From positions 3,677,001-3,741,000 of the forward strand of contig NC_092571.1 of assembly GCF_037975245.1 (NCBI RefSeq): a stretch of 64,000 nucleotides of DNA, given 5' to 3'. The position numbers and the translations under genes were made by a program. The notes beneath the pieces are model-generated. The model saw only the letters and a list, made by a program, of their open reading frames with translations. It was not told where the DNA came from and ran no database searches. How positions within the stretch are numbered: position 1 is the first letter of the stretch; every line of letters begins with the position of its first letter. Below, one piece after another: positions 2,112-61,615 of this stretch. This DNA is from Apostichopus japonicus (lineage: Eukaryota > Echinodermata > Holothuroidea > Aspidochirotida > Stichopodidae).

Positions 2112-4925
2112 ACCAGGGTGTGCCCTTCTTGGCCCTTTAACCTGTTATGTTATGTGTGTTGTTATTTTATGTTATATTGCAATCTCTTAGTAATGACATT
2201 GGTTGTAAATCAACTCTTGTCTGGAAGTAAGCGATCCTTGATCAATTCAATCAGATAGCTTTTCGTTGTTTAAATTCCCGTCATTATCATGATATTAGAA
2301 ATAACGCAATACTGATAGGAAACTGAACAAAAAGACAATAAAATGGTTTCACAACATTCTAAAACTATGGCCATATCTAACGTTTAGAACAATGTGTGAA
2401 TTAATGTTGAACACATTGTTTTTATTGTTCTGTTAGCAATTATGTTTAGAGTGTTATAGGTTTAGGATAATTTAATGACTTTGTATACGAGGGCATGATC
2501 GCTTACATTACAGAAACTTCAACTGGGGTGCAACTGTAGGCAAAGAATGTGTAAGAAACAATGCAAGCACCCGTGGTGCACATACATATATTCTCATCAG
2601 CTCAATCCCTCGATGAAATAAAGACCTATTCTACCGGGTGGAAATAAGAATTACGGATTTCATTTATAGCGTTAATTAAATAGCATACACCGCTGATGCT
2701 ATCTGCTAAGCCAACAGAAAATGAAAGCCCGCAGCATTCGCTAATTTCCTTTCCAGTATATTATTTTTTATAATTTATAATTTATAGTATGTTGTATTTC
2801 ACGCACAAGCAATATAACAATATATGTAAGTTATATTGCACTTTCAGCGTGGTTATAGCAATGCCACTCATGATAGTTTTTAAGTGATTTTAGATAACTA
2901 TATACTTTATAAGAGTTTTGAGACAGATGCATTGTTTTATCTTTCGCAAGCCACTTTAACGACTATACTGTCTGTACTGTGAACTTGCTGCTATAGTGTC
3001 AACAGAAATCTTAGTAATCGCCGAGAAATACAATGAACTTTGAAACCTCACAAAAAAGCAAACAGTTTTTATAGCTCAATGCAGCCTTTCATACCTTATC
3101 CACCATTATCAGCGTTGTCGGAAGTTTTCATAATCCTCGATGAAAACGGCCGAGTTGTAAAAACAGATCATGTGAATTTTTCGCACGCTCCTTGAGCTAA
3201 AACTCGCATATCATTCTGCACTGCCCAATGTCAACTTTAATCTCTCTCGGTAAAACCGACAAATCTTTCGTCCATAATTATAACTTTTATACTTGGTGAC
3301 ATGATTACACCACGCAAATGTGAAAGCGAGGTGCATTTTCTCACTATCATTGGAGGACTCTATCAATTGCCAATGTTTAACGTTCTTGATTTAAAATAAA
3401 CCTCCAGTCAATCTTTGCAAAAATGCCATAATTGCAAAATAATATGTTTGGCGGTTTTCGACAGACAGATATATCTTGTAACAAATATAATGAAAATATA
3501 CATTCATGGAGGTTACAGAACTGAGCTATAATAGCGCAAGGCTTTATAACAAAATGGCGACTCTTGCCTGTGCTACATCGATAGAGAACAGCTTTAAAGT
3601 AGTATAAACTGGTTTGAATGGCATAAATAATTATAAATGATATCATTATTCGACATTTGAAGTCATGATATTTAATTTCCCATTATTATGTTAATTAGGT
3701 AATCAGTGTAGAGAAGAGCATGCGCATGGCGTTCACATGTTTGTTGTCTTGTCATTTATAGTAGAATATAAACCACCAGGCTATAGGTTCTAGTGACTGA
3801 GCAAGTCAGCCAGACCCTTCTATTTTAATCGGTGGCCCCTTGCCTGCATGCCTGGCAAGGGAGGCTACAACCCGAGGTCAATCAGTGGCCCAGGAAAACA
3901 TTGAAAATGGACGGGAATGGGCAAATGTAATAAGTATATAGTGCATTTCCATTCTCAAAAGATAATTATATACGGAAAGGGCAAAACTTGGGGTCCGTTG
4001 ACATAACTATCCCCAAGGGCCCATCAGACTTCGATGCCCCCCCTACTCCCGCGTAATTATAATGTTGTGCCTGTTTTGTAACGAGTCATAGCTCGAGTAA
4101 TACTGAAGGTGACGAAACTCGGACTTGCGGAAATGTTAACCATTAAAATAACACAATGATTACAGCTATATTCACTTGAATCCAGTCGCGAACATGTCAA
4201 TGAGTTGAATCGGAGATTCAGATGAAGACTTTAACATATCCAATGACAATGAACAAACATCGGATCGAGGAATGACGTCATTTTCGATAAATTTACTGTT
4301 TATTTATTATCAGCTAGAGTAAGTGAGCCATTTTAGACAATGAACATAACGGTTCAATATTAACTTCATATACGGTTATAAAGTATAATTTCATCTAATA
4401 GTATGGAATATATTAAATTCCCCTTAATTATTAATCTCTTATAGCAACTATATCGATATTCGACATATTTCACGCTCTCGAGCTCGATGATAAGGAGAAA
4501 GTTTACGTTTTTGTTTGTAGATTTTAGAACGCATGTGTTCGAACTATACAAGCACGCAGGTAGGCGAAGCATACTTTTCTTTGCTTCTTTTTATAATTGG
4601 TTACTTGAAACAATGCGCTAATTAATAGTAAAGCTTTTAGGGATGTGCGTATTTCAGCCAATGATCAGTAAATAACATCATAGTAATCTCCATCAGCGAT
4701 CTAGGACGAATTTGACGTGATCGCCCAGGTTTATCAGATCGGAGTTATCATTGGAATCGTGCACGTGGACGTGCTGTTTATTCCTACAATTGATTCAACT
4801 TATTTTACCATCGAGTATTCATCTTGGTTAAACAACATAATTTTATAACCCTCACGTGATGTATGACGTTATAGGTCACGTCATATACACATGCTTCTGC
4901 ATCCTTCACTGAAAACTTAAATTGG
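2112..4925. other. no recognisable gene
   Basis: About 2.8 kb of AT-rich sequence. The open frames are short and lack splice-bounded or family-like features. I see no RNA gene or mobile-element terminus in it. Confidence 0.45.
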
Positions 4926-4928
4926 TTC

Positions 4929-5290
4929 ACCGACTAACATAACGTTAGTCCATTTGGTGCCTCTCCCGACTAACATAGCCTTAGTCAGTTGCTATACCGA
5001 CTAATTTATTCCTTAGTCAGTTGGATTTCTTAGTGGGTCATCTTAGTCCGTCAACTTAGTCGATCAACAATTTCTTAGTCGGTAAATGTATATTAGTCAG
5101 TTACATTAGTTGGTGACATTAGTCGGTCTTTACCGACTAATTTATATGAGCCACCGACTAGTTTATAGCAGGTTTTACATTAGTCAGGATGGTGCCTCTC
5201 CCGACTAACCTTTCTTAGTCGGTATCGACTGACTAGTTGCACTGACTAGAATCACTGAAAGAATTAAACCCGACTAGTTTCACTGACTAG
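4929..5290. repeat. block of TTAGTCGGT / ACCGACTAA motifs (left)
   Basis: More than a dozen copies of TTAGTCGGT, its complement and close variants occur in both orientations within 360 bases. Dense, mixed-orientation short motifs of this kind are often subterminal transposase-binding repeats of DNA transposons. A second block of the same motif lies at 9.14-9.38 kb, so the two could be the ends of one roughly 4.4-kb element or two separate insertions. No long terminal inverted repeat was confirmed. Confidence 0.5.
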
Positions 5291-5609
5291 CATCACTGAA
5301 AGAAAAGAGAGCAGAAGAAACACAAATAATGTGTACGTTGGCAGTATTTATTTCTGATAAAACTTCTGATGTCTACAAAGGCTGACTTTCGACAGATAGG
5401 GAAGAAATCACTGTAAACAAAAATCTGAAAATATGATTTTATTCCAACAAAGTTAAGACAAGTTAATGGATCAAACATGAATCGCAAAAGTATAGCACTG
5501 CACAATAATGCAAAGTTGAATCTTGGGCAAGGGTTCCTCATGACTTTCGTTTTATAGTGGTACCCCAAATCGACACCAGTTAAGTCTTCACGAACAAAGA
5601 GTGTTTCTC

Positions 5610-5668
5610 CTAACTACAAATGGCCTCCCACTTGTCTTCAGGAAGCCAAAATCTGCACCATAATTGAC
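5610..5668 (-). CDS. possible terminal exon of an unknown minus-strand gene
   Basis: On the minus strand a convincing acceptor (TTCTGTTCACAG) is followed by a short open stretch reading QLWCRFWLPEDKWEAICS and a TAG stop at 5610-5612. Its tryptophan-rich composition looks coding rather than random. It lies just inside the left TTAGTCGGT block, so it may be the last exon of a gene carried by a DNA transposon. No upstream exon or family could be assigned. A further weak minus-strand candidate lies at about 7323-7519, after the acceptor TTTCTTTTTTCCAG. Confidence 0.22.
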
Positions 5669-5920
5669 CTGTGAACAGAAAATATGATATACGTGTAAGC
5701 ACAGATACAGATATAGCACATGATAACTCACATTATCATAAACATACATTTACATTAAAATTTTATAACATATTGGGAAGTATACATTTAAATCTAGGTC
5801 CCTCAAATTATAAGCCAGGAATAGCAGCTTTACCAAATAATTATTAGCTTTGCACAGCATAACACCAAGTTATTTTTCAAAGCTTAATAATTATGTTAAT
5901 CATGTTAATAATGATCCCAA

Positions 5921-7159
5921 TAGACCGGGAGCCCAGAGGGTTTGGTTAGCTGGGAAGGTAACCAATTGCCTTGTACATCACAATGTTCACAGTGCCTTCC
6001 TGTATATGAAACCAGACGACTGGCAAACCGACTGTGGTGGGTGTGGCTGGGAGAGCAATTTTAAAGTCACCTGATAGCTAACCTAGATCAGTTTTCATGG
6101 TAACACATCAAAGTAAGTACAATGTGTCAGGTATGGCCCCAAGAGCAACAAATGGCCATTGCCAGTAATTATTGGTGGTGGGGTACCCCTGCCAGTGATC
6201 TATAATTGACCCCTCAAGGCTGACCTAGGTCAGCTCATGAGGAAACCACTTGAAACCTACTGGAAAATGTTGGTTAGGACTTCAGATACAACTGATGGGC
6301 ATTGCCAGTAATTTTTATTGGTGGGGTACCCCTGCCAGTAGACCCCCAAAATGCCCATCCCCCATTGACCTAGATGAGCTCATGATGTAATCAGTTGAAA
6401 ACTACTGGAAAATGGTATCACTTCATATGTAAGGGATGGGCATTTCCAGAATTTTATATTAGTGGGGTACCCCTGCCAGTAGACCCCCAAAATGCCCCCC
6501 CCCCCCTCATTGATCTAGGTCAGCTCATGATTTAACCAGTTGAAAACTACTGGAAAATGATTGACAGGATTCTATATGTAAGGGATGGGCAGACTCTGGC
6601 AGTGGTGGCCCACTAATATAAAATACTGGAAATGCCCGTCCTTACATATGAAGTGATACCTATCATTTTCCTGTAGGTTTCAACTGGTCAAATCATGAGC
6701 TCACCTAGGTCAATGAGGGGATGGGCATATTTGGGGTCTACTGGCAGGGGTACCCCACCAATAAAAATTACTGGCAATGCCCATCCCTTGTATCTGAAGT
6801 CCTAACCAACATTTTCCAGTAGGTTTCAAGTGGTTACCTCATGAGCTGACCTAGGTCAGCCGTGAGGGGTCAATTGTTGATCACTGGCAGGGGTACCCCA
6901 CCACCAATAATTACTGGCGATGGCCATTTGTTGCTCTTGGGGCCATACCTGACACATTGTTCTTACTTTGATGTGGTTACCATGAAAACTGATCTAGGTT
7001 AGCTGTTAGGTGACTTTAAAATTGCTCTCCCAGCCACATCCACCACAGTCGGTTTGCCAGTCGTCTGGTTTCATATACAGGAATGCATTGTGAACATTGT
7101 GATGTACCAGGCAATTGGTTACCTTCCCAGCTAACCAAACCCTCTGGACTCCCGCTCTA
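5921..7159. repeat. 1.24-kb foldback (giant inverted repeat) with internal tandem units
   Basis: The left arm from 5921 is mirrored almost base for base by a right arm ending at 7159; they meet near 6590 with a short spacer. Each arm holds about three tandem units of roughly 141 bp, marked by GGGGTACCCCTGCCAGT and GACCTAGGTCAGCTCATGA. Both arms give the same open string (KVTNCLVHHNVH...KPDDWQTDCGGCGWESN), so the matching frames in opposite orientation reflect the palindrome. The high arm identity points to recent formation or ongoing gene conversion. It resembles foldback-type elements; no clear target duplication was found. Confidence 0.85.
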
Positions 7160-9140
7160 CAGATCAGTGAAAATTTGACCAAACTTATGAAGCTTGCACG
7201 TAAATGATATACTAGACTGTTTTTTTTTTTAAAACAGGTTATGAAAAGTATCTTTAATATCATTAAACAGTTGGGTACAATAGTTAAACTCACTCTTCCA
7301 TCTTTTTTCTCTATGGTACTTGTTCCTTTGCTTTTTGGACTCTTGGATAAACTCTTTTGTTCTGCGAAGGGTACCAATATATCATCTTAAAACATGTCTT
7401 TAAGCCATATATAACACAGTTCTCCTCTTCTGTTGTTGCCTCCACACTGGTGTCGTACATCACAGGAAACCTCACCCTTGACTTAGATATTTGGCTTTTC
7501 AATTCCTGCTGGAAAAAAGAAACAGCAAAGTATTCATCATTTGAAAAAATAAATAAAGTTGTCACCACAAAGTTATGTGAGATTTGCTTCCACTATAGTC
7601 TCAAAAAACAATCCCAAAGTTTGAAGCAGACTGTATAAAGCTGAAAATTTGAACGAGAGTGTCATCACCATTGCAACCAGAATCAAATGCCCAGAATACA
7701 GAGATAATAAAACATGGGCTAAATCTTTGTTTGTTTTTATGATCTTTAAAAATATAAAATTTTAGAAACAGAATGCACTGAGCAAACTTATTTATAGGCC
7801 TAATCGTTTTTAGTTGTTATTTTGCTTGCTCACATAACAAGCCTGTTTAGACCTAGGCTAGAGGAGAATCAATACTTTGTTACACTAAGTTTGTCTTTCG
7901 GTCGTTTTGATTTAGTCTTACTAGTAGTACTAAAGTATATAATGGACCGGCGAAGACTAGAGAATACCCAGAGTTTTAGCAACTGCGTTAAACTGTATCA
8001 TCTGATCTATTATTTACTTCAATGAGTTTCATTCAATCTAGGATCAAAAAGAGAAAACTAATTAATCTTAACCTTTAAACTTTGCTACTAAACAGATATG
8101 CTTGAATTACAAATAAATGTCAAAAACATCATAATCTACGAATCGATGCATATACATATACATAAACAGAATAATTTGAATTCGCGCAAGTGAACCCTGC
8201 ACTACATTGGACAGAAAAAAAACGTGCAATTATAGACCAAAATAAACATACTAAATTTTCCGTTACTTCTACATAAAATATCAATACAAATACAACAACT
8301 TACTCTTTTGGCAGTATACTAAAAGCACATGTTATAATAACTTCAGACTATCAAGCTTTCCTGAGAAAAAACGGTTAATACTTCTTACAGTAAACAAGTC
8401 GACCGTGAAGGAATGTCGCAATTGTTTCCTGAGCGTGACCGGAAATTAAATACTAAAAAATGATAAATGAAAAGGTTAAATAGAACTGAAGCGTGCATCC
8501 TGACTGCTCGCAACATATAATACCGTTGACTAGCCAACATAATTTGTTCAGCCTACTGTGACTGTACGTTTGAAGATCTAGCCTTGCTTATTCAATATCA
8601 CAAAGCCTACCCATTTAGATTCACATGGGATATTACAGGAAATCTTTACCAAATGAGTGTAGACTTCAAATAAACTATTGAGACTTATAGTTCCAGCATT
8701 TGTTTGGGAATAAATTAGAAGATTATGTGCCACTGTTCAGTCTAGCCCAATACACACATAACACATTTTTAATTGGTGTTTAGAATGCACACTTTAGTGT
8801 TGAGAATGCACTGCAGTACCCAGTAGAAGCCTATAGGCTACTCACTGTCATTGCACTTGTGTATTGCGAAACGCCAGCGTGACAACGGTAGCGTTACACT
8901 AACCATAATACATGAGTACTAGTGCCAGTGGCCTAACAATTAACTTTAATTTTACCTTCAAGTTAAAGGAATAACAGGTAGGCCGATGATGGCAGTTAAT
9001 ACCTCCATTCTTCTAAAGACCTTCTTGGGTGATTTACGGTTGGAAGTTGCTTAGAGTGATCGTATGAAACTATGCAAAGTCCAGCAAGCTGCCGTTGCCT
9101 CTCGGTTTCCAAATTGAAGTGAATCGAATTGGGTTAAAAT
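7160..9140. other. unassigned sequence between foldback and right motif block
   Basis: Two kilobases with no supported gene. The best open stretch is on the minus strand near 7311-7568, after a strong polypyrimidine acceptor; its predicted peptide matches no family I know. If the flanking TTAGTCGGT blocks are transposon ends, this would be internal element sequence. Confidence 0.35.
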
Positions 9141-9142
9141 AC

Positions 9143-9380
9143 ATTAGTCCGTCGACACCGACTAAGCTACGATTATGCGTAAATCGGGTGTCCGTATCGT
9201 TCTTAGTCCATGGGTTAAAATACCTTAGTCCGTCGCCACCGACTAAGCTGCGATTATATTTTCCTTAGTCAGTGTAAACTGACTAAGAAGCAGCGATGAA
9301 ACGAAGATTTTTGCTAGTTCGTGTGCATTGACTAACGTTACAAACTAATTTAACGTTAGTCCGTGGCAATATTGACTAGT
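9143..9380. repeat. block of TTAGTCGGT / ACCGACTAA motifs (right)
   Basis: It carries the same words as the 4.93-5.29 kb block, including two near-identical sub-blocks (TTAAAATACNTTAGTCCGTCG...CACCGACTAAGCT) and AACGTTAGTCCGTGG, which is close to the AACGTTAGTCCATTTGG of the left block. It ends about 250 bases before the first visible GH31 exon. Confidence 0.5.
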
Positions 9381-9631
9381 TTATTTTTTCAATGTTCAAC
9401 ACCTCAATTACCCACAGCTCACACGTTTTTAAGTTACATTATTACCTTAACTTCATTTAGCCAAGTGTCAATCAGGTGCTGACATTATACCAGCTACTGT
9501 ACACTACTCCCCAACATCAGTAGTATGGTATGATTCAAACCCTGGAAATTCATAGGCCCCCACTTGTTGTATATGCATAAATTATGCATCTATTTTTGGA
9601 ATACGGTATCAGCTGTCTTATTCTCTTACAG

Positions 9632-12600
9632 GTGACTGTTTTAATCACAGACGCTGGCGGTTTGACGTATATAACCGTTACACAAGCCTCGAGTAACTTC
9701 AACCGCTTCTGGTTCCGAATCATGTCAACCGGAAGTGACGAACATGTTTATGGCGGTGGTGAACAATTTTCATACTTTGATCTAAACGGGAGGAATTATC
9801 CACTTTGGCTACAGGAACAGGTGCAAATTTTAAAATTTTTCATTACAAACAAAAACATGCATCATCGTGGATTAAAATGATAGTAAGGGGAATTTTGTTT
9901 TGGCTAAAAGGTGAGAGAAATGATCATATTCTAAACATCCTAGTGAGCTTTGCATTCAGTTCCTAAGTATCGTTTTCGAGACACAATTCTGATCCGTTTG
10001 TCCCCTGTTTGGCTGTTTCATTAAGATGCCAAACAAACACCTCAAAAATTACCAAATAAACAGTGCAAATTGCATTGATTTGCTGGTATAATGATTATCT
10101 GAAGATAAGTTTTGTTTTCCTCTCATTCCAACCTTTTCAATATTTCAAACCTATTCTAAACTGTAAGGTTAGTTTACTAGTTTGGACCAATACATATTAT
10201 ATTACTTCATACCTTTTCAGGGAGTTGGTAGAAACAAGAGCACATACACGACCTTCTTAGCGGATCAAGACAGTGGGTCTGGGGGAGACTATTACTCAAC
10301 CTATTGGGTTCAACCAACCTTTGTGTCGTCCAGGAAATACTTTGCTCACTTTACAAGCTCTACTAACGGGCAACTCGATTTCAGGAACGACGGTTTCCAC
10401 GAGGTTGAAATTTGGAATGCACCAGGTATAGTTTTAATGGAACATATGAAAAAGCTCCTTCTGACAAGAATATGCATGATACAAGTTTCCTATAGCAGCA
10501 GGGCAAGGTGATGTTGTTGGCAAAAGATATATACATCAGCACACGCACAGAATGGAAATATATTATTTCCCTATTAACAATATTCTTTCCAGACAGTTAC
10601 CACCTCTCCAAGTCTTCCAGGTCACTTTTTGATAGAAAAGTAACCCTACCCCATCTAACACTTTATAATTTATTTACACGTTGGGTATATCTCTTTTAGA
10701 CTCAGAGATATTCCCTGGGCAGCTCGTGATTGGAACGGCAACTACATTTCCAGATCTCTTAACCAAGTTGACTGGGCTCCTTGGTCGTCAGCCCAAGCTG
10801 CCTGACTGGTTGTATAACGGCGTCATCTTGGGAGTTCAAGGCGGTACAGAAGCAATGCTAGGGTATCTTGAGCAAGCTCAGGTAAGGTAACATTCATCAC
10901 TTATATCTTTGCGTGATGAAGTTGCATAGTACAGATTTCAATTTATAAGAGTTAGCCGGAAGAAAAAACCTGAAAGGAGACAAACCCAAGCATCATCATG
11001 AATCAATGTGAACCTCTTCTCCAAACAGTTAAGAAAAATCTTATATCATTGAGGATATATCAAAGATTTAATGTTCCTTCACACAGAAGATATGACATCA
11101 CCGAGTCTTCTACGAGAACCAAAAGTTGGTCGTCAACATTTTCGGTGGGTCGCAAACATATTCAGAAGTATGAAAATAGATCTACAGTTGTCGAAGCTTT
11201 TCAGCGGAGATCGATTAAGCTATGTTGTTAACATCAGGTCCATAACCCATGCTAACTTTATGGATTCTGAGCATCGAATCTGACGTGTGGTGAACTGGTG
11301 GGCGGTGGCTCATTCCTCATGGATGCCCCTGGGTCATTGCTATAATAGTGTGCATAATGCGATCAACTTCATGATTGCATTGTCCTGTGTCTCTTAGTTA
11401 GGGTTCAACGGATGTGAGCGTGCATCAGGTCGGGAAATAACGTCAAATACGTTTCTTACACAAGTTAGCGAACTAAATAGTGTGATACTTTACAAGAACA
11501 AAGCGCCAAGAATGAAACTCTCAGACAAGAAAAGAATATCATTTCTCGAAAGCGCTGAATTATCAAAATAAAAGAAGTGATCGCTTTGGGAGTACCGATA
11601 ATCTATTGTATTAAAATATTCGATCTATCTCTTGATCGTAGGTTTAGGTAAGTCCACTTACCAAAGTATCAATGTGATACTAAATGTGTACGGGAACAAT
11701 ATTTTAACTTGGGGACTGCTTCCCGCTTCCACCTTCACCTCATTAGGATTATCGACAGCCACAGGAATAACACAAAGTAAATAAATAAACTTGTCATTGG
11801 GTATGCCAAGTGCATTGGAAGAAAACGGAACATATTAATTGTTGAGGGCAGCTCATCATAACAGTGACAGTAATAGCATAGGCCTACTGTTATGTATACT
11901 CCTCAAGTTTGATGTTCTTTGGCAAAAATTCCTGTCATTGATATATGAATGTCTTTGCATTGAATATTGGTATAGTTCTTAGCATGATTCAACAGTTGAT
12001 TTCTGATCCAGGTAGGTGTTCTATACAGGACCTCCTAGTATTCTTTGTTTGTTCTCCCGCAGTAGCCTTATATAAACATGCTGATTTCTACATTCTCCTA
12101 TATGTTTATATAAGTATTCAACGCGATCACTTAAACTTGCAGCTCAAAATTGCAAGTGTGTTCGGGACAACGACTTTCTGACGTTTGTAAGATCAAGCTG
12201 AATAATTATGTAACATATTAATATGCACCGTAGCCGCGACGGAACCTCAGCATCCAACAATTATTTGTTCTGCTGGGATTACAAGTCTATAGTGTAGGTG
12301 CCACCACATGTTGTGGCGCCTAACAATAACACTGAACATACAGGTCCACTGTTAGGTAAGCTTTTCTTCATCATGATCATCATTTTTTCCCTTCAGAACG
12401 AGGGAATGAAAGTCGCCGGGCTTTGGATCCAGGACTATGCAGGTAGGATCACAACCTCGTTCGGCCGACGGCTATTTTGGAATTGGCAATGGGACCCCGA
12501 GCAGTATCCTGATCTGGACACGGAGATCATTCGGTTGAAAGAGGAGGAGAATATACGCTTGTTTGCTTACATGAACCCGAATCTGAATCGTGAGGGTAAC

Positions 12601-15600
12601 ATGTTCGTCGAGGCAGAAGATTTGGGATATTTGATTCGAAATAGTTCAGGCCAAACTTATTTGATTGATTATGGTGAGTTCTTCTGTGGAATCGTTGATC
12701 TTACGAGCCCCGAAGCATTTGATTGGTATAAGGCCAAAATAAAAACCAACATGATCGAATTTGGCTTCGACGGTTGGATGGCTGACTTTGGGGAGTACCT
12801 TCCTCCGGATGCAGTCTTTGACAACGGCGTCTCCGGGGAAGAAATGCACAACCTTTGGCCTGTTCTCTGGGCAAAGGCGAACCGTGAGGCAGTGGAAGAG
12901 GCGGGCAGACTAGGTGATATAGTGTTCTGGATGCGTGCTGGGTTTACTGGGTCTCAAAACTACAGTGTTATGACTTGGTCAGGGGACCAATTGGTCGACT
13001 TTAGCACAGCAGATGGCTTGGCCTCAGTTATAACGGGTACATTATCTTTGGGGATGTCAGGCTATGGACTGAATCATTTTGACATTGGTGGATACACGTC
13101 TTTATATGGTGTTATAAGAACGGAAGAACTTCTCTTAAGATATGCGGAGCTAGCAGCCTTTACACCAATGATGAGAAGTCACGAAGGAAACCGCCCTGAC
13201 GAAAATTGGCAGTATTATTCCAGTGTACACAGTATGAAGATGCTGGGACGCGCAACCGAGATCTATATCCTAATGAGGAACTATACGCAAAGTGTATTGG
13301 AAGAGGTGTATACATTAGGTTATCCAGCACAACGACCTCTTTTCTTTCATTACGATAATGACCCTCTGTCATTCGATGATTCAATGAAATATCAATATTT
13401 ACTGGGGAAGGATGTTCTCGTAGCACCGGTTTATTTACCTTCCTCAGAGACTGGTGATAGATGGACCCTTTACCTTCCGCCCGATGACTGGGTCTATCTT
13501 TGGGATGGTACGGCTTATGATGATGGGGGCGAATATGTTACTGTCGATGCTCCATTGAGAACTATTCCTGTCTTTTATCGAAAAGACTCGACGTATGCGC
13601 AATTCTTTCAAAACGTTGCAGCTAGTAAGTCAATTTTCCTTATTTTTGTTCTCAACTGTCAAGCCCCACGGGGATATGACTGCATCGCAGTCCTCATATA
13701 TGCTAGGATTGCCTTCATTAAACTTGTGATGCATCAAAAGGCAGTGAAATATATATCATTTTTTTTGTTCTTAATAAAATAATTGTCATTATTATGTAAA
13801 CTTAAATACTTTATCTGACTGAAAAATGCAACCGCAACTTCTATTAAAGTAGTGATTAATGAAAAGCACAACAAGTTAAACTATATCATTATTGGCATCG
13901 GGCCCTCGAAGTCAAGGAGGCCCGAAGTGAACACAACGTCAATGGGCCTCCGAGAACACTTCCAGGAAAGAAACACCAACTTCCTATTTGGATTGTATAC
14001 CAGAAACACTTGATGGGAGGAGGTGGGGTGGGGGCAATCATAGGGTTTCAGAGGGCACAAGATGATGTCATAATGTCATGCTGGAACCTTTATCAACCCA
14101 AGAACAACTGGTTGACTGAAAAATGCAAAAACAACTTCTATCAAATGAATAAGAAAAGACAAATATAACAACTTTAGTCATTTCATTGGTGGCCACGAGA
14201 AATCCTTTGTTTGTTGCCGAAATTCTTATTATTAACATAAAGCGAAAGAGCTAGTTTGAGGAATTTCAGTTATCATGCTAATCAGTTTAACGTTGATGAC
14301 GATGGGTGTATGTCTTCCTAAAGGAACGGTTTGCCACTTTCAAATCGGCCCAGGATCTTCTAGGATATGTACTCATTTTAGACTCTCAATGTGTGTTGCC
14401 AAATTTTAACTTCGACCTTTCTAGCTTACTCGGCCTTAAAGCTCAGTGAAAATAACACTTTCTATGCAATTTTCTATTAATTATTATTATTTTTATTGAG
14501 TTATCTGTCGTTTAACATTTTGGGCTGAATAAAAATTCGCCAGATTTTTTAACGAGTCCGTAGATGCTACAAACTTCAATCAAACTTTGCAAGCCTGCCC
14601 AACAGTCCATGCGCCAATCAAATCTCTCTGTTTTGTTCACGACGGTGAACTGTGTGCTAGCCTGTGTTAGGTCCATATTTTAATAGTATCTTTCTTTCAG
14701 TCTTACCCATAAAGCTTGCGAAATTTTGTCATTTCCTTCCATTGAAGGAATAAACAGGTGTTTTCAGACGTTCCCTCCATGATATTGGGTATAAAAAGTG
14801 GACGATACGAGTTTAGCAGGTTACATTTTTGTAATTAACATACTGATATGGACGGTCGCAGTGATTTGACGGTAAATCGTTTGCGCCAAAAGGGCAACAG
14901 AAAATAAATTTTGCGACAGCTTTTCTCCATTAAACCTACCCGGTCAGATTGCATTTAGAATAAGAAACAATGAATCTGCCTCGGAAGGTTGTTTTCCGAA
15001 ATTCATCAGCAAACCCACATTGAGACTTTAAGCTTTAGTTTATTGTATTGTATACATGTAATGATGGTTTTGAAATTGTTCAGACAATTAGCGAGCCTCG
15101 CAATCGAATAGCCATACGTGAGACAAATGTAACAAATATATCGAAGCTGCTCTCAGTACTAAAATCAACATCTCAAGAGCACTTTGACCGACGGTAAATT
15201 GCTAAGTTCAAACTTCAAGGAGTAGCTTAGCTTTACAGTGTCTCCGAAAGATAAACGGATGATTAATTGCTTTACGCGTTATCATGGAAATTGTAAAACA
15301 ACTAACACACGGGTTAAAAACTTGCAGTAAGTACTATATTCTAAAGTAACATGTTACACAACATGTTACACAATTACCAACATCCCTTTGAATTTTCCGT
15401 TTGAACGCTATTTTAGTAGTTCGTTTCAGACAACAAGATGCCAAATTCGGTGATTAGTGCTGTACGACCGTTATTGTGTACTAGGTAATAGACATAGCCT
15501 GTTTACATGTATCTGCTATGAAAGTATTAACCAATCATATGAATAAGCCAAACTGATTGCAGTAGAGGCAAAATTGTTGACGTATTCAACAAACGTGTTC

Positions 15601-16197
15601 TTGCATTAAGTAGTGTAACAAATTAAAGTTATATTTGTACACTGGCTTTTTTCGTGCTATCGAGACTTACGATAACGTTGTCAAGCGTAAATTTAATCCG
15701 TACTCCAAACACTCTCATTGGCAGAGTACGGGAAAGAATAACATCAAGTTCAGACGCTTTTATTCAGAATTGTCATGTACTGCTTATGTATGTATGAGCA
15801 ATTAAATACCCAGAAGAGGATCTCTTTGCAAATATTTTCTCCCCGAAGAGCTTTACCATATAAACTGAGAAACTATGCCTTTGTTTGTTTCATATTAGAT
15901 CTTGTAAGAATACTGCAAAACCATTGTCTCGTCTTATCAAAATCTTATTTACATTGCCTATAAATAAAACGCTCGTTGAGTAGACCTATAAAGATTTATG
16001 GACCATGATTTCAACTCCCAACATTCTCTAGTTATCGTTTTAACTGTTTTTAATCTTCTTTTATAGACACTCCTGCTATTCTGCCGACTACTACTATGGA
16101 CCCAGTCCCCACATCAACGGCGTCAATAGCTTCAATGCCTTCGGAGTTTGTACTATTAGTTACAATTTTCCTAGTGGGAAAAATTTGGACTCCATGA
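9632..16197 (+). CDS. GH31 alpha-sulfoquinovosidase-like glycosidase (5' end missing)
   Basis: Predicted to hydrolyse alpha-sulfoquinovosides, the head groups of plant and algal sulfolipid (SQDG). Five exons join in phase: 9632-9820, 10221-10425, 10700-10881, 12397-13624 and 16067-16197, giving 644 residues before TGA. Exon 1 has the YGGGEQFSYFDLNGR motif and exon 2 continues EQGVGRN. The GH31 nucleophile is Asp in MADFGEYLPPD (codon 12784) and the acid/base is Asp in SGDQLVDF (codon 12985). Residues equivalent to the bacterial YihQ QQRWY pocket are all present: Gln 10837, Gln 12430, Arg 12469, Trp 12478 and Tyr 13093. Compared with bacterial enzymes of about 680 residues, roughly 100 N-terminal residues are missing, and no start or signal peptide was found. 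The last exon encodes a Thr/Ser/Pro stalk and a hydrophobic tail, suggesting a GPI or membrane anchor (inference). Family sure; substrate well supported by motifs but untested. Confidence 0.88.
12397..13624 (+). CDS. catalytic-barrel exon of the sulfoquinovosidase-like gene
   Basis: A single 1,228-base exon encodes most of the (beta/alpha)8 barrel and the C-terminal beta domain: from NEGMKVAGLWIQDY, through both catalytic aspartates, the LNHFDIGGYTSLYG loop and TPMMRSHEGNRP, to the VFYRKDS segment. The acceptor is TTTTTTCCCTTCAG and the donor is GTAAGT after 13624 (phase 1). The open frame runs 99 bases upstream of the acceptor and about 160 bases past the donor, but neither part resembles the family, which supports the splice choices. 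Confidence 0.88.
16067..16197 (+). CDS. last exon: Thr/Ser stalk and hydrophobic tail
   Basis: It follows the acceptor CTTCTTTTATAG and joins in phase 1 to the catalytic exon. The peptide starts NTPAILPTTTMDPVPTSTAS, then a short spacer, the hydrophobic run FVLLVTIFLVGKIW, and stops two residues later. Small residues, spacer and a C-terminal hydrophobic run form the usual layout of a GPI-anchor signal, though a short transmembrane anchor is also possible. Bacterial YihQ lacks such a tail, so this would be an animal addition that holds the enzyme at the cell surface. An ATTAAA at about 16557 could serve as poly(A) signal. Confidence 0.65.
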
Positions 16198-30247: not shown

Positions 30248-33200
30248 ATGACATCTTCTTACTTCGTGCTATCTGTGTGTCTCCTAGTGTGTGTGGACTT
30301 AGCAAAGTGTGATGACTTGGAAAATCACAAGGTAAGTAGGCAACAAAATCAAGACATTGGCGTTTATTAATTTAAGGAGGTAATGCAGAATATTGTTGGG
30401 ATGCTTTTTTCTTCTCAATGGGGTTAGTAGAGGTGAGTAAGAGTCAGTGTTTCACGATCCACCAATTTCGTAACTTTATTTTCACGACCATTGGGTAAAG
30501 GGTGTATGTGACACAGTTCGGATGGTCTACAAGCTCCCCCGTTCCACCCTGGCAAGGAACATTTCTATGGTAACCCTTTTGCCGATGAGGCCGTTTGTAA
30601 CCAAGTGTGTATGCAATCAGTAGTCTTTCTGTCAAGTGGTTTAGCTCATTTTCGGTGTGCGACCAGCCGGTGTATAGGGAGTGAGAGACATCCACTGGTC
30701 TTGGGAGGGTGCAATACAGCAAACGCCATCCACTGCAGGACACAGCATGCATGCTCCAGCGGATCTTGTCTTCACACAGGCGGGGTTAATTTCCGCTGTT
30801 ACCACCAATTGTTTTAGTAAACGTATTGAGTAAGTCGCTCCAGAGTATTGAGTAAGTCGCGCGACAATTTCTTCCCCTCACCTGGGAAAGTCTTGCCCTC
30901 ACCTGCTTTCAATGTCTTGTCCACATGTATATGTACCCTTGCTCGCCACCTGTGCTCTAGTACTTAAGGTTTACAGAACATGTTCCCCCTAATATATCCT
31001 TAGTGTCATGGTGATGCTTTTCAATCTCCTTCTGTCTTTCTGTGGAATAGAAGCTGAACCTATGTCTAAATTTAAAGCTTCATATTAATCTATTCGCAAT
31101 GTTATATACTTTTTCATCCAGTTACTCTGTCCTCTTCTCTCAGCGCAACGTAGTCTTGGAAAAGTCGTTTGTAATACTCTTTTTCTCGCGTGAAAACTGT
31201 TCATGCCTCAGAGTCCGTTTCTGTTTATCACGAATGTGCTTGCCCACTGTGTTTTACATGCCCGAGGATCTGTCCGATACAAACGTCTTGGACATTTCTC
31301 TCAAGAGGGGCGTGAATTTATGCAAACTACAAATCTTTATTCATATTTAAGTATTAAGTAAGTAAGTTAGTAAGTAAGTAGGTAAGTAAGTAAAACTTTA
31401 TTTCTCCTAAAAGGAAATTTGTATACTCGCAATGCAAAACATAAAGACGGATATCAAATGTAAATATATTATATGTAAAAATGTGGGTATATACAGATAA
31501 TACGATAAAAAAGGATAATAAAAATCAACGTAACATAGTATAATTAAAAAGCTTAATTTCACGAGGGATAAAAGAATCCCGGTATTTGTTTGTTTTTAGT
31601 CCCTGAAGTCTCAGCCTACCAATGCCTCTTGTCATTTGACTGTCATGCAGTTGATCACGGAGAGGGTGGCTAGATTCATCCCATATAAAGTCTAATTTAG
31701 ACTGAAAAGGGAATGGTAGACCGAATCAAATGAAGGCAGGGACTTACCAACCACCCTTTCTGCTTTCTTAATAATGCTATTGATATGATTTTGTCTGTAT
31801 TATTAACGTTACCACCCCAACAGACCAAGCAGTATCGCCAAACCCCACAAATGGTAGCACTATAAAATAATTGTAAGAATTCCGGACGCATATTAAAGTT
31901 GGACATTTCCTAAGACAGTATAATAAAGTTTAACGACGGAAATCAATTTACATTTCTTTCGTCTTGAAAACATTTAATTCAAGAAAATTTGTATCACAAT
32001 AATTTACGAACGATTGCAGCTAACTAAGGTACGTACTATCATCAATATCATTAATTAGACCAATCATGGCGGTATCATCAGCAAATTTAATGAGTGGGCA
32101 CCCTTCCTCCGAAGATCTGTAATCATATGTGTATAATGCAAAAAGGAATGGTGCTAGCACTGTCCCTTGAGGGTCTCCCTTATTAGAACAAATTTAATCA
32201 GAACGACAAGTAGGGCTAAGTTTAAAAAAATGTGTTCTGTTTGTAAGATAATTAATGAACCAGTGAATTATGCCATTGGGAACCATCATTTTTATAAGTT
32301 TGTCGACCAATATATAGGTTTTAATGGTATTAAAGGCGGATGAAAAATCAAAGAATAAAACACGGGCAAACTTCCCACGACAGGAATGTTCAAAGGTGGG
32401 AAAAAATCCTTTCAAGGATGGTATCTTTACAACTATGACTCGATTGGTATGCAACTGAAAATGATCTAAAAAGGGAACTACAAATGGTTTAAAACGTTCT
32501 AAAAATAAACGTTCATAAATGTTCATAATAATACAATTCATGTATTACCCATGGTAGCTTCCATGATATAATGTATACCGTCACTGGCCAGTGAAGATAT
32601 GTTCCATGCTTATCCTGCATGACATTCAAAGCCATAATGGACATCTTTCAGCTGCTCAGTGCATTTTCTGTATCCCTTTCTTTTTTATTGTTAGACCATT
32701 CCTTTTGATGTTGTCTTAATGTTTCTGGCCACATCAGAGTGAACGATTTCATCAAAGCAAAAGTTTTGTTTTGTTTTTCACTATTATGTTTAACTCATTT
32801 ATGTGCTCTCGATATAAACAACTACTGGCCTGTCAAAAAAGCTGGGAAGCGCGAGATTGTTGTTATATTACATTTTAAATTTTGTGGTATAGACACAGTT
32901 TACATGCTAGTTTTAAGGATATTCCGGTGGCAAGTTACATAACTCTTAAAGATAAACTAATTCTCGCTGTCTAGTTGGAACCCCTATCTTCATATCTTGT
33001 ATATCTAAATCGATCGACCCGCGGAATGATTGTTCCCTATTTTGACATTACTCCAGGAAGTGTATCACAGTAGAAGGTCTGTTATGTCATCATGACATGG
33101 CGGTGTTCTTCAATAGCTTTACTTTTGTATTGTCATGTTCTTGTGGATTTATCCTTTATATGTGATACATATGGAAAATGTACTTAGTTGTGAATTTCAT

Positions 33201-59065: not shown

Positions 59066-59794
59066 TCAGACCCGATTACAATGCTTAAAGTGCTTGTCCA
59101 AAGCATTCTTAAACCCATTGACACTACTTGCAAATACAACTTTCTCAGGCCAACCATTCCACTCATTCACAACCGTATTAGAAAAAAAAGTTATGCCGAA
59201 TATTAATCCTATTATGTGACTTTTGGAGTTTAAGACAATGACCTCTGGTACAACTACTGTTAGCAAACATGAAAAAGTCGGTAAAGGATAAATTGTCGAA
59301 ACCATACACAATCCTGAAAACCTGGATCAAGTCCCCACGTAACCTCCTAAGCTCCAGTGTGGTGAGATTCAACAGTTGTAACCGCCTATTATAAGGAACA
59401 CTCTTTAAGGAACTAATCATCCTAGGAGCCCTCCTCTGGACCTTTTCAAGTACTTCCTTTTCCTTAGCAAAATATGGGTTCCAAGCCTGCACAGCATACT
59501 CCAGATGAGGCCTAACCAACTGCTTATAAAGCCTAACTACGATGTCCTCTTTCAAAAAACTAAAGTTCAAATCTTGATCATACCTAAAACCCTATTACCT
59601 CTTTTAGCAGCTTCAAGACAATGTTTGGAAGGTTGCAGCGATGAGTCAATGTAGATACCTAGGTCTCTTTCCACAGAGACCTCCTGTAACTCCACACCAT
59701 GAAGAATGTATGTAAACTTTTGGTTACTACTACCAATGTGCATTACCTTGCAGTTATCAATATTAAAAAGCATTTGCCACCCCTGAGACAACAT
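59066..59794 (-). pseudogene. LINE ORF2: C-terminal reverse transcriptase remnant
   Basis: It contains FNIDNCKVMHIGSSNQKFTY and ERDLGIYIDSSLQPSKHCLE, then after a one-base shift LVRPHLEYAVQAWNPYF, KVQRRAPRMI and LTTLELRRLRGDLIQVFRI, and after a second shift FFSNTVVNEWNGWPEKVV and the end. These are the thumb and post-thumb blocks of CR1-type enzymes. The FADD core is missing, deleted at the join near 59.79 kb. Confidence 0.8.
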
Positions 59795-60399
59795 CTAGAA
59801 AGTAACTACCCTTCCTACTACTGGAACCATCTATCCAATTAATGTCAGGAAAATTAAAGTCGCCCATAATAACAACATCACCTTTAGCAGCCTTTCTAAT
59901 TGTATCAAACAGCAAGACATCATTATCATCGCTGCTGTTAGGAGAACGGTAAACAACACCAACAGTGATAACATCACTGGACTTCTTGGAGTTGTCTGTG
60001 AACAACTCGCACCAGACAGAATTTACAAAAGACCCTTGCAACTGAGATTTCTCTACACTTACAATGTCATCTCTAACATACAGTGAAACTCCCATGACGA
60101 GTATCCCTTCTGTCCTGACGATACACAACATACCCCGGGTGAGAAACCTCAGCACTATCAATGTCCTCCCTTAACCAAGATTCGGTGATACCAAACACAT
60201 CAGGTTTCAGATCCTCAAATAGCACAGTAAATTCAGCAATTTTTTTACGAATACTTCTAGCATTGGTAAAGACAATCTTCAGCTTATCCCTGAAACTATG
60301 TACCTTAGCATGCCCCCTAAAGTTAGATCTATGATTATCACTTCCCTTGCTTTCAAAACGCGTATAATCGCCTCCACTAGGAACATAATCCTTATCCAA
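59763..60399 (-). pseudogene. LINE ORF2: APE-type endonuclease, frameshifted and truncated
   Basis: It begins in overlap with the end of ORF1 (GGATAAGGATTATG). FTNARSIRKKIAEF, DVFGITESWL, HPGYVVYRQDRR, then after loss of one G near 60092 VSLYVRDDIVSV, VGVVYRSPNSS, VVIMGDFNFPDINW. These are the endonuclease blocks; the C-terminal SDH block is lost because the sequence stops at YFLDVVS, where it joins the reverse transcriptase tail. Confidence 0.8.
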
Positions 60400-61219
60400 A
60401 TTTATTAGCTAAGTGCAACCCATCCCTGGCGAACAAATCCCTTCTACCCTGGAAAGATGACCACATGTCAACAAATGTGAAGCCGAAATCAGTACACAGA
60501 ATACGCAATAAACCATTCAAAGTCACAATCTTATCTGACTGAACCTTGTTGTCGAATCTTGGCAATAGACTACATATGACAACTTTAGCCCGAGTTGATG
60601 CTAGTCGACACATCAATTCGTGATACCTAGAGTGAATAATAATTTGTGACTCCTTCTGCACATTATTGGTGCCTGCCTGGACCACAACAACCTCTTCATC
60701 TGACACGATTTTGTTAACCCTTTTACTGACATCCTGGATTTTAGCACCTGGCAAACATACCCTGACCCTTTTTGCTTTATCCGCCCCGCAGAACTCTACA
60801 TACCGTACTAATGAATCCCCACACAATACCATCCTTCCTTTCGATTTCTCCCGTCCCCACTGACAGCTCTTTACAACCACACTTCCTTCGTCTATCACAT
60901 CACAATCACCACGCACTTCGTCCACTACTAGCCACTCACTATTTCCCTCCTGGGAGACTTCATTCCCATCACCAACATCACTCAACTCCTCCACAGGTAA
61001 CACGTCGAATCCATTACAAGTTGGAACATCCTCGCAAAAATCCCTTTCAATCACTGCACTACTTACAGTCCTACTATTCCCGACTTCCGTCCATTCACAA
61101 CAACAGCTATTTAATAGCTCCTCTAATTCCTTAAATTTCACACACTTATCGCAAACAAACACAATAGCTTTACAAAAACATGCAGAATGACAGGAACAGA
61201 CAATAAATAACGAATACAC
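60392..61219 (-). CDS. LINE ORF1 with SGNH-esterase-like domain
   Basis: An open frame of about 275 codons, still intact. The C-terminal half has MVLCGDSLVRYVEF (block I with the nucleophile serine), VVVQAGTNN, VVICSLLPRF and FARDGLHLANKFG (the Asp-x-x-His block), the layout of esterase ORF1 proteins in CR1 elements. The N-terminal part is Cys-rich (CSCHSACFCK, CDKC) and partly encoded by the proximal 5' monomer. No ATG opens the visible frame; the first start-like codon is GTG, so the true start may be lost. It ends overlapping ORF2. Confidence 0.75.
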   Translation of the reverse strand: MYSLFIVCSCHSACFCKAIVFVCDKCVKFKELEELLNSCCCEWTEVGNSRTVSSAVIERDFCEDVPTCNGFDVLPVEELSDVGDGNEVSQEGNSEWLVVDEVRGDCDVIDEGSVVVKSCQWGREKSKGRMVLCGDSLVRYVEFCGADKAKRVRVCLPGAKIQDVSKRVNKIVSDEEVVVVQAGTNNVQKESQIIIHSRYHELMCRLASTRAKVVICSLLPRFDNKVQSDKIVTLNGLLRILCTDFGFTFVDMWSSFQGRRDLFARDGLHLANKFG

Positions 61220-61615
61220 TAAGGCACAGAAAAACCTGCGAACACAGAAAATCGATACTCACGATTAGCAGCTTAGGCTCAACAGAGACTATACACTGAA
61301 CGATAGGATACACTGACGCTACAGACCTACCACCACGGACAGCACTGAAACAAGGCAGAAAACAGCACAGATTAAACACAAAAACATGCAGAATGACAGG
61401 AACAGACAATAAATAAAGAATACACTAAGGCACAGAAAAACCTGCGAACACAGAAAATGGATACTCACGATTAGCAGCTTAGGCTCAACAGAGACTATAC
61501 ACTGGACGATAGGATACACTGACGCTACAGACCTAAAACCAGGGACAGCACTGAAACAAGACAGAAAACAGCACAGATTGAACACAAAAAACATGCAGAA
61601 TGACAGGAACAGACA
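61181..61615 (-). repeat. 206/207-bp 5' monomers of the LINE
   Basis: The word TGCAGAATGACAGGAACAGA recurs at 61181, 61387 and 61594. Two complete, nearly identical units are followed by a short third that then diverges. Tandem monomers at LINE 5' ends often serve as promoters; here the proximal unit runs into the ORF1 frame. Confidence 0.8.

Follow-up and report, generated by a model that had tools for sequence, protein, structure and literature searches.

The stretch of DNA examined here, referred to as the window, comprises 64,000 nucleotides of the genome of the sea cucumber Apostichopus japonicus (contig NC_092571.1, our C11, positions 3677001-3741000). It carries a five-exon copy of a gene of the GH31 sulfoquinovosidase (SQase) family. 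The exon borders proposed by the original prediction (Table 1) were borne out by a splice and frame check: AG/GT dinucleotides are found at every intron-adjoining border, the intron phases match, and the exons join into one open frame of 645 codons including the stop, which corresponds to 644 residues. The two motifs on which that prediction had leaned, MADFGEYLP and GDQLVDF, were both found in the product. A search of the 671,581,487-base assembly (35 contigs) reveals four SQase copies, all on C11: A at 3.60 Mb, B (the window copy) at 3.69 Mb and C at 3.89 Mb on the plus strand, and D at 22.47 Mb on the minus strand. The window probably contains exons 2 to 6 of an echinoderm GH31 SQase gene, in the form of a duplicate truncated at its 5' end; the complete copies A and D would encode secreted and probably membrane-anchored SQases.

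Table 1. Coordinates of the SQase exons and key codons in the window, and of the complete paralogues on contig C11.
Feature	Position	Strand	Content and basis
Exon 2 (first one in the window)	9632..9820	+	End of the N-terminal beta domain, residues 1-63; splice borders and frame
Exon 3	10221..10425	+	Ends in phase 1; splice borders; 205 nt also in A, C and D
Exon 4	10700..10881	+	Beginning of the catalytic barrel; Gln codon 10837-10839, aligned with YihQ Q262
Exon 5	12397..13624	+	Most of the catalytic barrel and the C-terminal domain
Exon 5, pocket codons	12397..13624	+	YihQ equivalents Q288 12430-12432, R301 12469-12471, W304 12478-12480, Y508 13093-13095
Exon 5, catalytic codons	12397..13624	+	YihQ equivalents nucleophile D405 12784-12786, acid/base D472 12985-12987
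Exon 6	16067..16197	+	Thr/Pro/Ser-rich linker, hydrophobic C-terminal tail, stop 16195-16197
Copy A	C11:3601528-3613775	+	Six exons, 743 residues
Copy D	C11:22477485-22467382	-	Six exons, 750 residues

By sequence and fold, the window product is a GH31 sulfoquinovosidase. It scores 794 bits against PRK10426, the NCBIfam equivalog model of YihQ (which carries the NCBI name alpha-glucosidase), for a cut-off of 553. The GH31 catalytic barrel and the C-terminal domain are recognised by PF01055 (158 bits) and PF21365 (61 bits), respectively, both above their cut-offs. The top matches of a phmmer search of the PDB are bacterial SQases (8r56 at E 4e-210, 6pnr at 3e-201 and YihQ at 3e-198), and the first match outside the SQases, a YicI, follows at 2e-38. 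Over the aligned regions, the window protein is identical to the solved bacterial enzymes at 54% (8r56), 51% (6pnr), 51% (YihQ) and 48% (Agrobacterium AtSQase) of the positions.

The sulfonate-binding pocket is complete. Alignment to YihQ places its residues Q262, Q288, R301, W304 and Y508 opposite Q178, Q204, R217, W220 and Y425 of the window protein, and the catalytic pair D405 and D472 opposite D322 and D389, in agreement with the full QQRWY motif that had been claimed from the sequence of the locus. The YihQ residue numbers, and the roles of the pocket residues, are presumably those described by Speciale et al. (2016). The motif occurs in 83 of the 86 SQase rows of our alignment, three of them animal, and is replaced by KERWY in the other three; neither version is present in the four non-SQase GH31 rows, so the match of the window protein is not attributable to chance. 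A, D and the window copy each carry all five pocket residues. Across the 83 non-animal SQase rows, 143 columns have an invariance of 97% or more, and 129 of these are retained in both A and D; Glu 369 (YihQ number), which lies near the pocket, is Ser in D.

The fold was analyzed with an AlphaFold2 model that covers exon 5 only (409 residues, built from a 36-row alignment) and has a mean predicted local distance difference test (pLDDT) value of 90.1. In a Foldseek search with this model, SQases occupy ranks 1 to 23 with a template modelling (TM) score of 0.95, and the next family, YicI, reaches about 0.80. In a comparison with VIA, nine SQase entries had Z values of 46.1-47.2, and the entry that followed had 36.7. 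A non-SQase GH31 identity was rejected on the basis of the PRK10426 score, the tree described below, the comparison of motifs and identities, and the Foldseek ranks.

The paralogues A and D provide the complete form of the gene. Their exon lengths of 205, 182 and 1228 nt and their intron phases agree, and the intron positions are common to both despite the saturation of synonymous sites. The two proteins are identical at 523 of 740 aligned residues, with a nonsynonymous divergence (dN) of 0.22; this value, set beside the saturated synonymous sites, indicates that the sequences of A and D have long been under purifying selection. A hydrophobic segment follows the initial Met, with a hydropathy over 11 residues of 2.27 in A and 2.15 in D, and a second hydrophobic peak is found at the C-terminus (3.0 and 3.16 over 11 residues, respectively). 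Exon 6 is identical between the window copy and A, and a similarly arranged exon is proposed for D. This exon is less certain than the others of D because it was picked among several acceptor and stop candidates, for its pyrimidine tract, the best of the set, and its A-like make-up.

The copies differ at the 5' end. The first exon of the window copy has no start codon and begins at about YihQ residue 91; it matches an N-terminal SQase profile, built from 79 bacterial SQases, at E 4e-5. The same profile detected a first exon upstream of A and D (E 2e-11 and 3e-12), and no signal-peptide exon upstream of the window copy in the stretches examined. Exon 1, which encodes the signal peptide and some 80 further residues (about 99 codons), has two matches genome-wide, at C11:3601528-3601824 and C11:22477195-22477464. 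The whole-genome search with the exon 1 protein gave no match near the window or copy C, although a missing match is not proof of absence. In the 62,500 bases between C11:3614501 and the window start, which contain no runs of N, no convincing exon 1 was detected (best tblastn hit at E 1.0; best profile hit at E 0.29, on the other strand). Consequently, the N-terminal beta domain is complete in A and D and incomplete in the window copy, which we filed as a truncated relative because its exon 1 was not found. The proposal that the five exons form a whole resident gene was thus not sustained, as neither a start nor a signal-peptide exon was found for this copy.

Copies B and C are 99.6% identical across 10.6 kb upstream, and the homology between B and A stops between exons 1 and 2 of A. 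The most economical interpretation is that a stretch of A devoid of the first exon was duplicated, and then duplicated again, giving rise to B and C; both look like 5'-truncated duplicates of A. Separately, the window copy contains about 4.5 kb (window 4908-9395) that is absent at the same place in A and C. This segment holds inverted repeats with arms at 6104-6362/6717-6975 and 5921-6104/6976-7159, which are 96% complementary, and resembles a transposon that inserted ahead of exon 2, the first one in the window.

The phylogenetic position of the animal proteins was analyzed with three trees. The first contained 90 rows, comprising 86 SQases (among them the animal rows A, D and window) and four outgroup rows (YicI plus three MYORG-like proteins encoded in the sea cucumber genome). 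For the second, 27 of the 90 rows were dropped, namely the four outgroups, three long or odd rows and 20 near-duplicates. The third combined 37 of the 90 rows with four new ones and left out the window row; a further candidate, L111, gave no usable frame. The second and third trees were midpoint rooted, with no outgroup, and copy C is in none of the three. The starts of the bacterial proteins were set by a length rule, and the Reinekea locus L023 was left out, since it has no frame with the motif used for picking proteins. The outgroup samples just three of the further GH31 loci of a genome that has 48 exon-level PF01055 matches, the SQase copies included.

In the first tree the 86 SQase rows separate from the four outgroup rows with a support of 99, and the animal rows form one clade with a support of 100. 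In this one tree, with its four non-SQase rows, the window protein therefore did not fall in a non-SQase GH31 clade, the outcome that the original prediction had regarded as decisive against it. The animal clade retains its support of 100 in the second and third trees and lies inside the bacterial SQases. Its stem is long, with 1.26, 1.46 and 1.71 changes per column in the first, second and third tree. The first tree joins it at 95 to L066, a locus from a rumen metagenome-assembled genome (MAG), in what was flagged as a meeting of long branches; the frames neighbouring L066 look bacterial, and this row was excluded from the other two trees. In the second tree the animal clade groups with YihQ and a number of clostridial SQases (99 in the Shimodaira-Hasegawa-like approximate likelihood ratio test, SH-aLRT). 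This grouping recurs with 100/99 in the third tree, where it also takes in spirochaete rows.

The search for a close bacterial donor yielded none: among the best 80 of 563 GTDB relatives, the top identity over the best segment was 52%. With exon 5 alone, the best of 35 of these 80 loci that were aligned was L012, from a Clostridium MAG, at 57%. Exon 5 reached a top identity of 53% both against 392 genomes from the phylum of G002, the Treponema MAG of locus L079, and against 369 genomes from the class of G003, the Reinekea genome of L023. In the phylum of G002, 56 of the 392 genomes match at E 1e-80 or better with 38-53% identity; the less similar matches often sit in longer frames, and perhaps represent a second GH31 subgroup.

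Several observations weigh against reading the window copy as a truncated duplicate within a family of secreted, anchored SQases. The Pfam N-terminal domain PF13802 scores 23.2 in the window protein, below its cut-off of 27. Of the 143 near-invariant columns, 14 are altered in A or D, and Trp 290 (YihQ number), two residues after Q288, is kept in D but is Tyr in both A and the window copy. The signal peptide, SQase and hydrophobic C-terminal tail of A and D are predicted features, the signal and the anchor by inspection and hydropathy. As for the other proteins of the bacterial Yih system, searches run without a positive control gave no genome match at E 1 or better for E. coli YihT and YihS, and a single, non-significant one (E 0.55) for YihV; the outcome hints, weakly at best, that the animal goes no further than cleavage of the glycoside and that microbes use the sugar. 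Finally, the frame of the window copy is open and retains all key residues, and its substitutions are unevenly distributed. By parsimony with A and C, the changes private to B amount to 3 of 1932 coding columns and 37 of 4197 intron columns (p 0.0005), two of the three coding changes being synonymous. That private changes are rarer in its exons than in its introns hints that B is constrained or recently gene-converted rather than plainly decaying, although the numbers are small.

These last data are what would be anticipated if the window copy were a working gene with a borrowed first exon, either exon 1 of A spliced over some 85 kb to B or a new first exon that was not recognised. A, B and C do lie on the same strand of C11, and the splice acceptor before 9632 is intact. 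Against this, exon 1 has matches genome-wide only at A and D, with none that convinces along the 62,500 bases that precede the window, and the selection argument turns on just three coding changes. Copy A shows no comparable contrast (5/1932 coding and 16/4197 intron columns, p 0.64). Copy C (C11:3892725-3900381), for which no exon 1 was found either, has 8 private coding and 145 private intron changes, a contrast inflated by its divergent third intron. By pairwise codon arithmetic, the private coding changes divide into synonymous and replacement changes as 2/1 in B, 4/1 in A and 1/7 in C, and one codon is missing from C eight residues past the nucleophile; this copy looks relaxed and is perhaps decaying. 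Moreover, an SQase fold is unlikely without some 100 residues of the N-terminal beta domain. A borrowed first exon is thus an unlikely explanation, though one to be taken seriously, and the window copy probably does not give rise to a working enzyme.

Other explanations concern the identity of the family rather than the state of the window copy. The long stem of the animal clade and the changes at near-invariant positions would fit an enzyme whose specificity has shifted to another anionic or 6-deoxy alpha-glycoside of the animal or its prey while retaining the same pocket. We regard this as improbable, since none of the five pocket residues has changed in A, D or the window copy even though the synonymous sites of A and D are saturated, and since the accessible part of PMC5902678 ascribes the negligible alpha-glucosidase activity of the E. 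coli SQase to conserved sulfonate-recognising residues. That the gene encodes an ordinary animal GH31 enzyme of the MYORG, glucosidase II or acid alpha-glucosidase type which merely resembles an SQase is very improbable: the GH31 domain is held in common, but the window protein is identical to the three MYORG-like proteins at 118/524, 116/535 and 104/512 positions and to YihQ at 296/587. PRK10426 is matched far above its cut-off and the tree sets the window protein apart from the MYORG-like rows; glucosidase II and acid alpha-glucosidase, neither of which is in the tree, rank far below the SQases in the PDB search. In the collections searched the family is otherwise bacterial, which could point to contamination or misassembly. 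The probability of either is negligible, and bacterial contamination was rejected in view of the introns with consensus borders, the presence of four loci on one contig of 28.4 Mb and the top identity of 52% among the 80 GTDB loci kept. The original prediction of a resident animal gene accordingly holds for the family, which is embedded in the chromosome with four copies and, in A and D, shared introns; it is not supported for the window copy, which, as far as the assembly shows, is incomplete.

The reading of A and D as secreted SQases allows for a mechanism to be proposed. Their proteins would enter the secretory pathway by means of the predicted signal peptide, and the hydrophobic tail probably anchors the enzyme to the outer face of the membrane, through a glycosylphosphatidylinositol (GPI)-type anchor or a single span, so that it would reside on the cell surface or in a secretory compartment. 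By homology, the enzyme would hydrolyse alpha-sulfoquinovosides such as sulfoquinovose (SQ)-glycerol by double displacement. Asp322 (window numbering) would attack C1 to form a covalent sugar intermediate, and Asp389, as the acid/base, would protonate the leaving glycerol and subsequently activate water; Arg217, Trp220 and Tyr425 would hold the sulfonate, in the roles we take them to have in YihQ. Deposit-feeding sea cucumbers swallow algal remains, and for this reason the enzyme would most likely serve to free SQ from SQ-glycerol in the gut. The substrate would then be the sulfolipid of ingested algae, with sulfoquinovose and glycerol freed at the surface of the digestive epithelium. An animal SQase family is well supported by the sequence data, from which we infer its SQ-hydrolysing activity, cellular location, substrate source and type of anchor.

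The animal proteins share with the bacterial GH31 SQases (YihQ, the BmSQase 8r56 and the Eubacterium rectale enzyme 6pnr) the fold, the nucleophile, the acid/base, the QQRWY motif and 51-54% identity. They differ in their animal host and spliced gene, and the window copy in the lack of a first exon. The hydrophobic N- and C-terminal segments of A and D are absent from the two bacterial enzymes compared, YihQ and one clostridial SQase. AtSQase is alike in fold and reaction class, but has K and E (KERWY) where the animal rows have the Q and Q of the YihQ type. According to the accessible part of PMC10755693, the NAD-dependent SqgA of family GH188 acts on the same class of substrates, and GH188 SQases are reported in bacteria, a few archaea, plants and algae; family and mechanism differ from those of the window protein, which belongs to GH31. 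MYORG and other animal GH31 enzymes belong to the same superfamily, but QQRWY is missing from the three MYORG-like proteins found here, which are 20-23% identical to the window protein and stand apart from it in the tree. They are encoded on C13 (L096, L097 and L098) in uninterrupted frames of 572, 608 and 729 residues, with MYORG as the best PDB match.

Two further observations were made in the course of the analysis. The window contains at 59766-61258, on the minus strand, an element that resembles a long interspersed nuclear element (LINE) in more than one frame, with a PF14529 endonuclease-reverse transcriptase piece and an open reading frame similar to OSK/GDSL esterases. Pieces of mitochondrial COX1 were found at C29:14745-16086 and 30842-31219, outside the mitochondrial contig C35, and are either nuclear insertions or unplaced mitochondrial assembly. 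In the COX1 gene of C35 itself (16,099 bases), AAA stands for Asn at sites where Asn is conserved, so that genetic code table 9 fits better than table 5, the one alternative tried; the gene order of this contig is that of sea urchins and sea cucumbers, in line with an echinoderm host.

Automatic annotation labels some invertebrate proteins sulfoquinovosidase-like. No animal SQase was found among the titles listed from the open-licence literature on sulfoquinovosidase, sulfoquinovose, sea cucumber, sea urchin, invertebrates and horizontal gene transfer in metazoa, and a term search of the accessible parts of PMC13219744, PMC6851490 and PMC9061262 yielded nothing on eukaryotic SQases. The accessible parts of reviews of 2022 and 2026 (PMC9594981, PMC12890257) describe no characterised eukaryotic SQ-degrading enzyme or pathway, and reviews, as far as their available text goes, credit the release and breakdown of sulfoquinovose, a compound produced on a gigaton scale (PMC13372026, in part), to bacteria. 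In the available portion of a 2025 paper (PMC12330013), it is considered unclear whether animals degrade SQ, and germ-free mice and a human cell line are reported not to do so.

GH31 SQases are already known from bacteria; what is new here is the animal host, the spliced gene, and a product that is probably secreted and anchored. We tentatively propose, as a possibility somewhat short of an even chance, that an animal lineage owns a secreted, membrane-anchored SQase of ancient bacterial origin that frees SQ from algal sulfolipid, and that copies B and C may be alternative catalytic cassettes that are joined to exon 1 of A by splicing. A spliced, chromosomal SQase family in an echinoderm makes the degradation of SQ by animals directly testable. 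If the proposal is true, the two steps of this process would be separable, and an animal may cleave the glycoside without the ability to burn the sugar.

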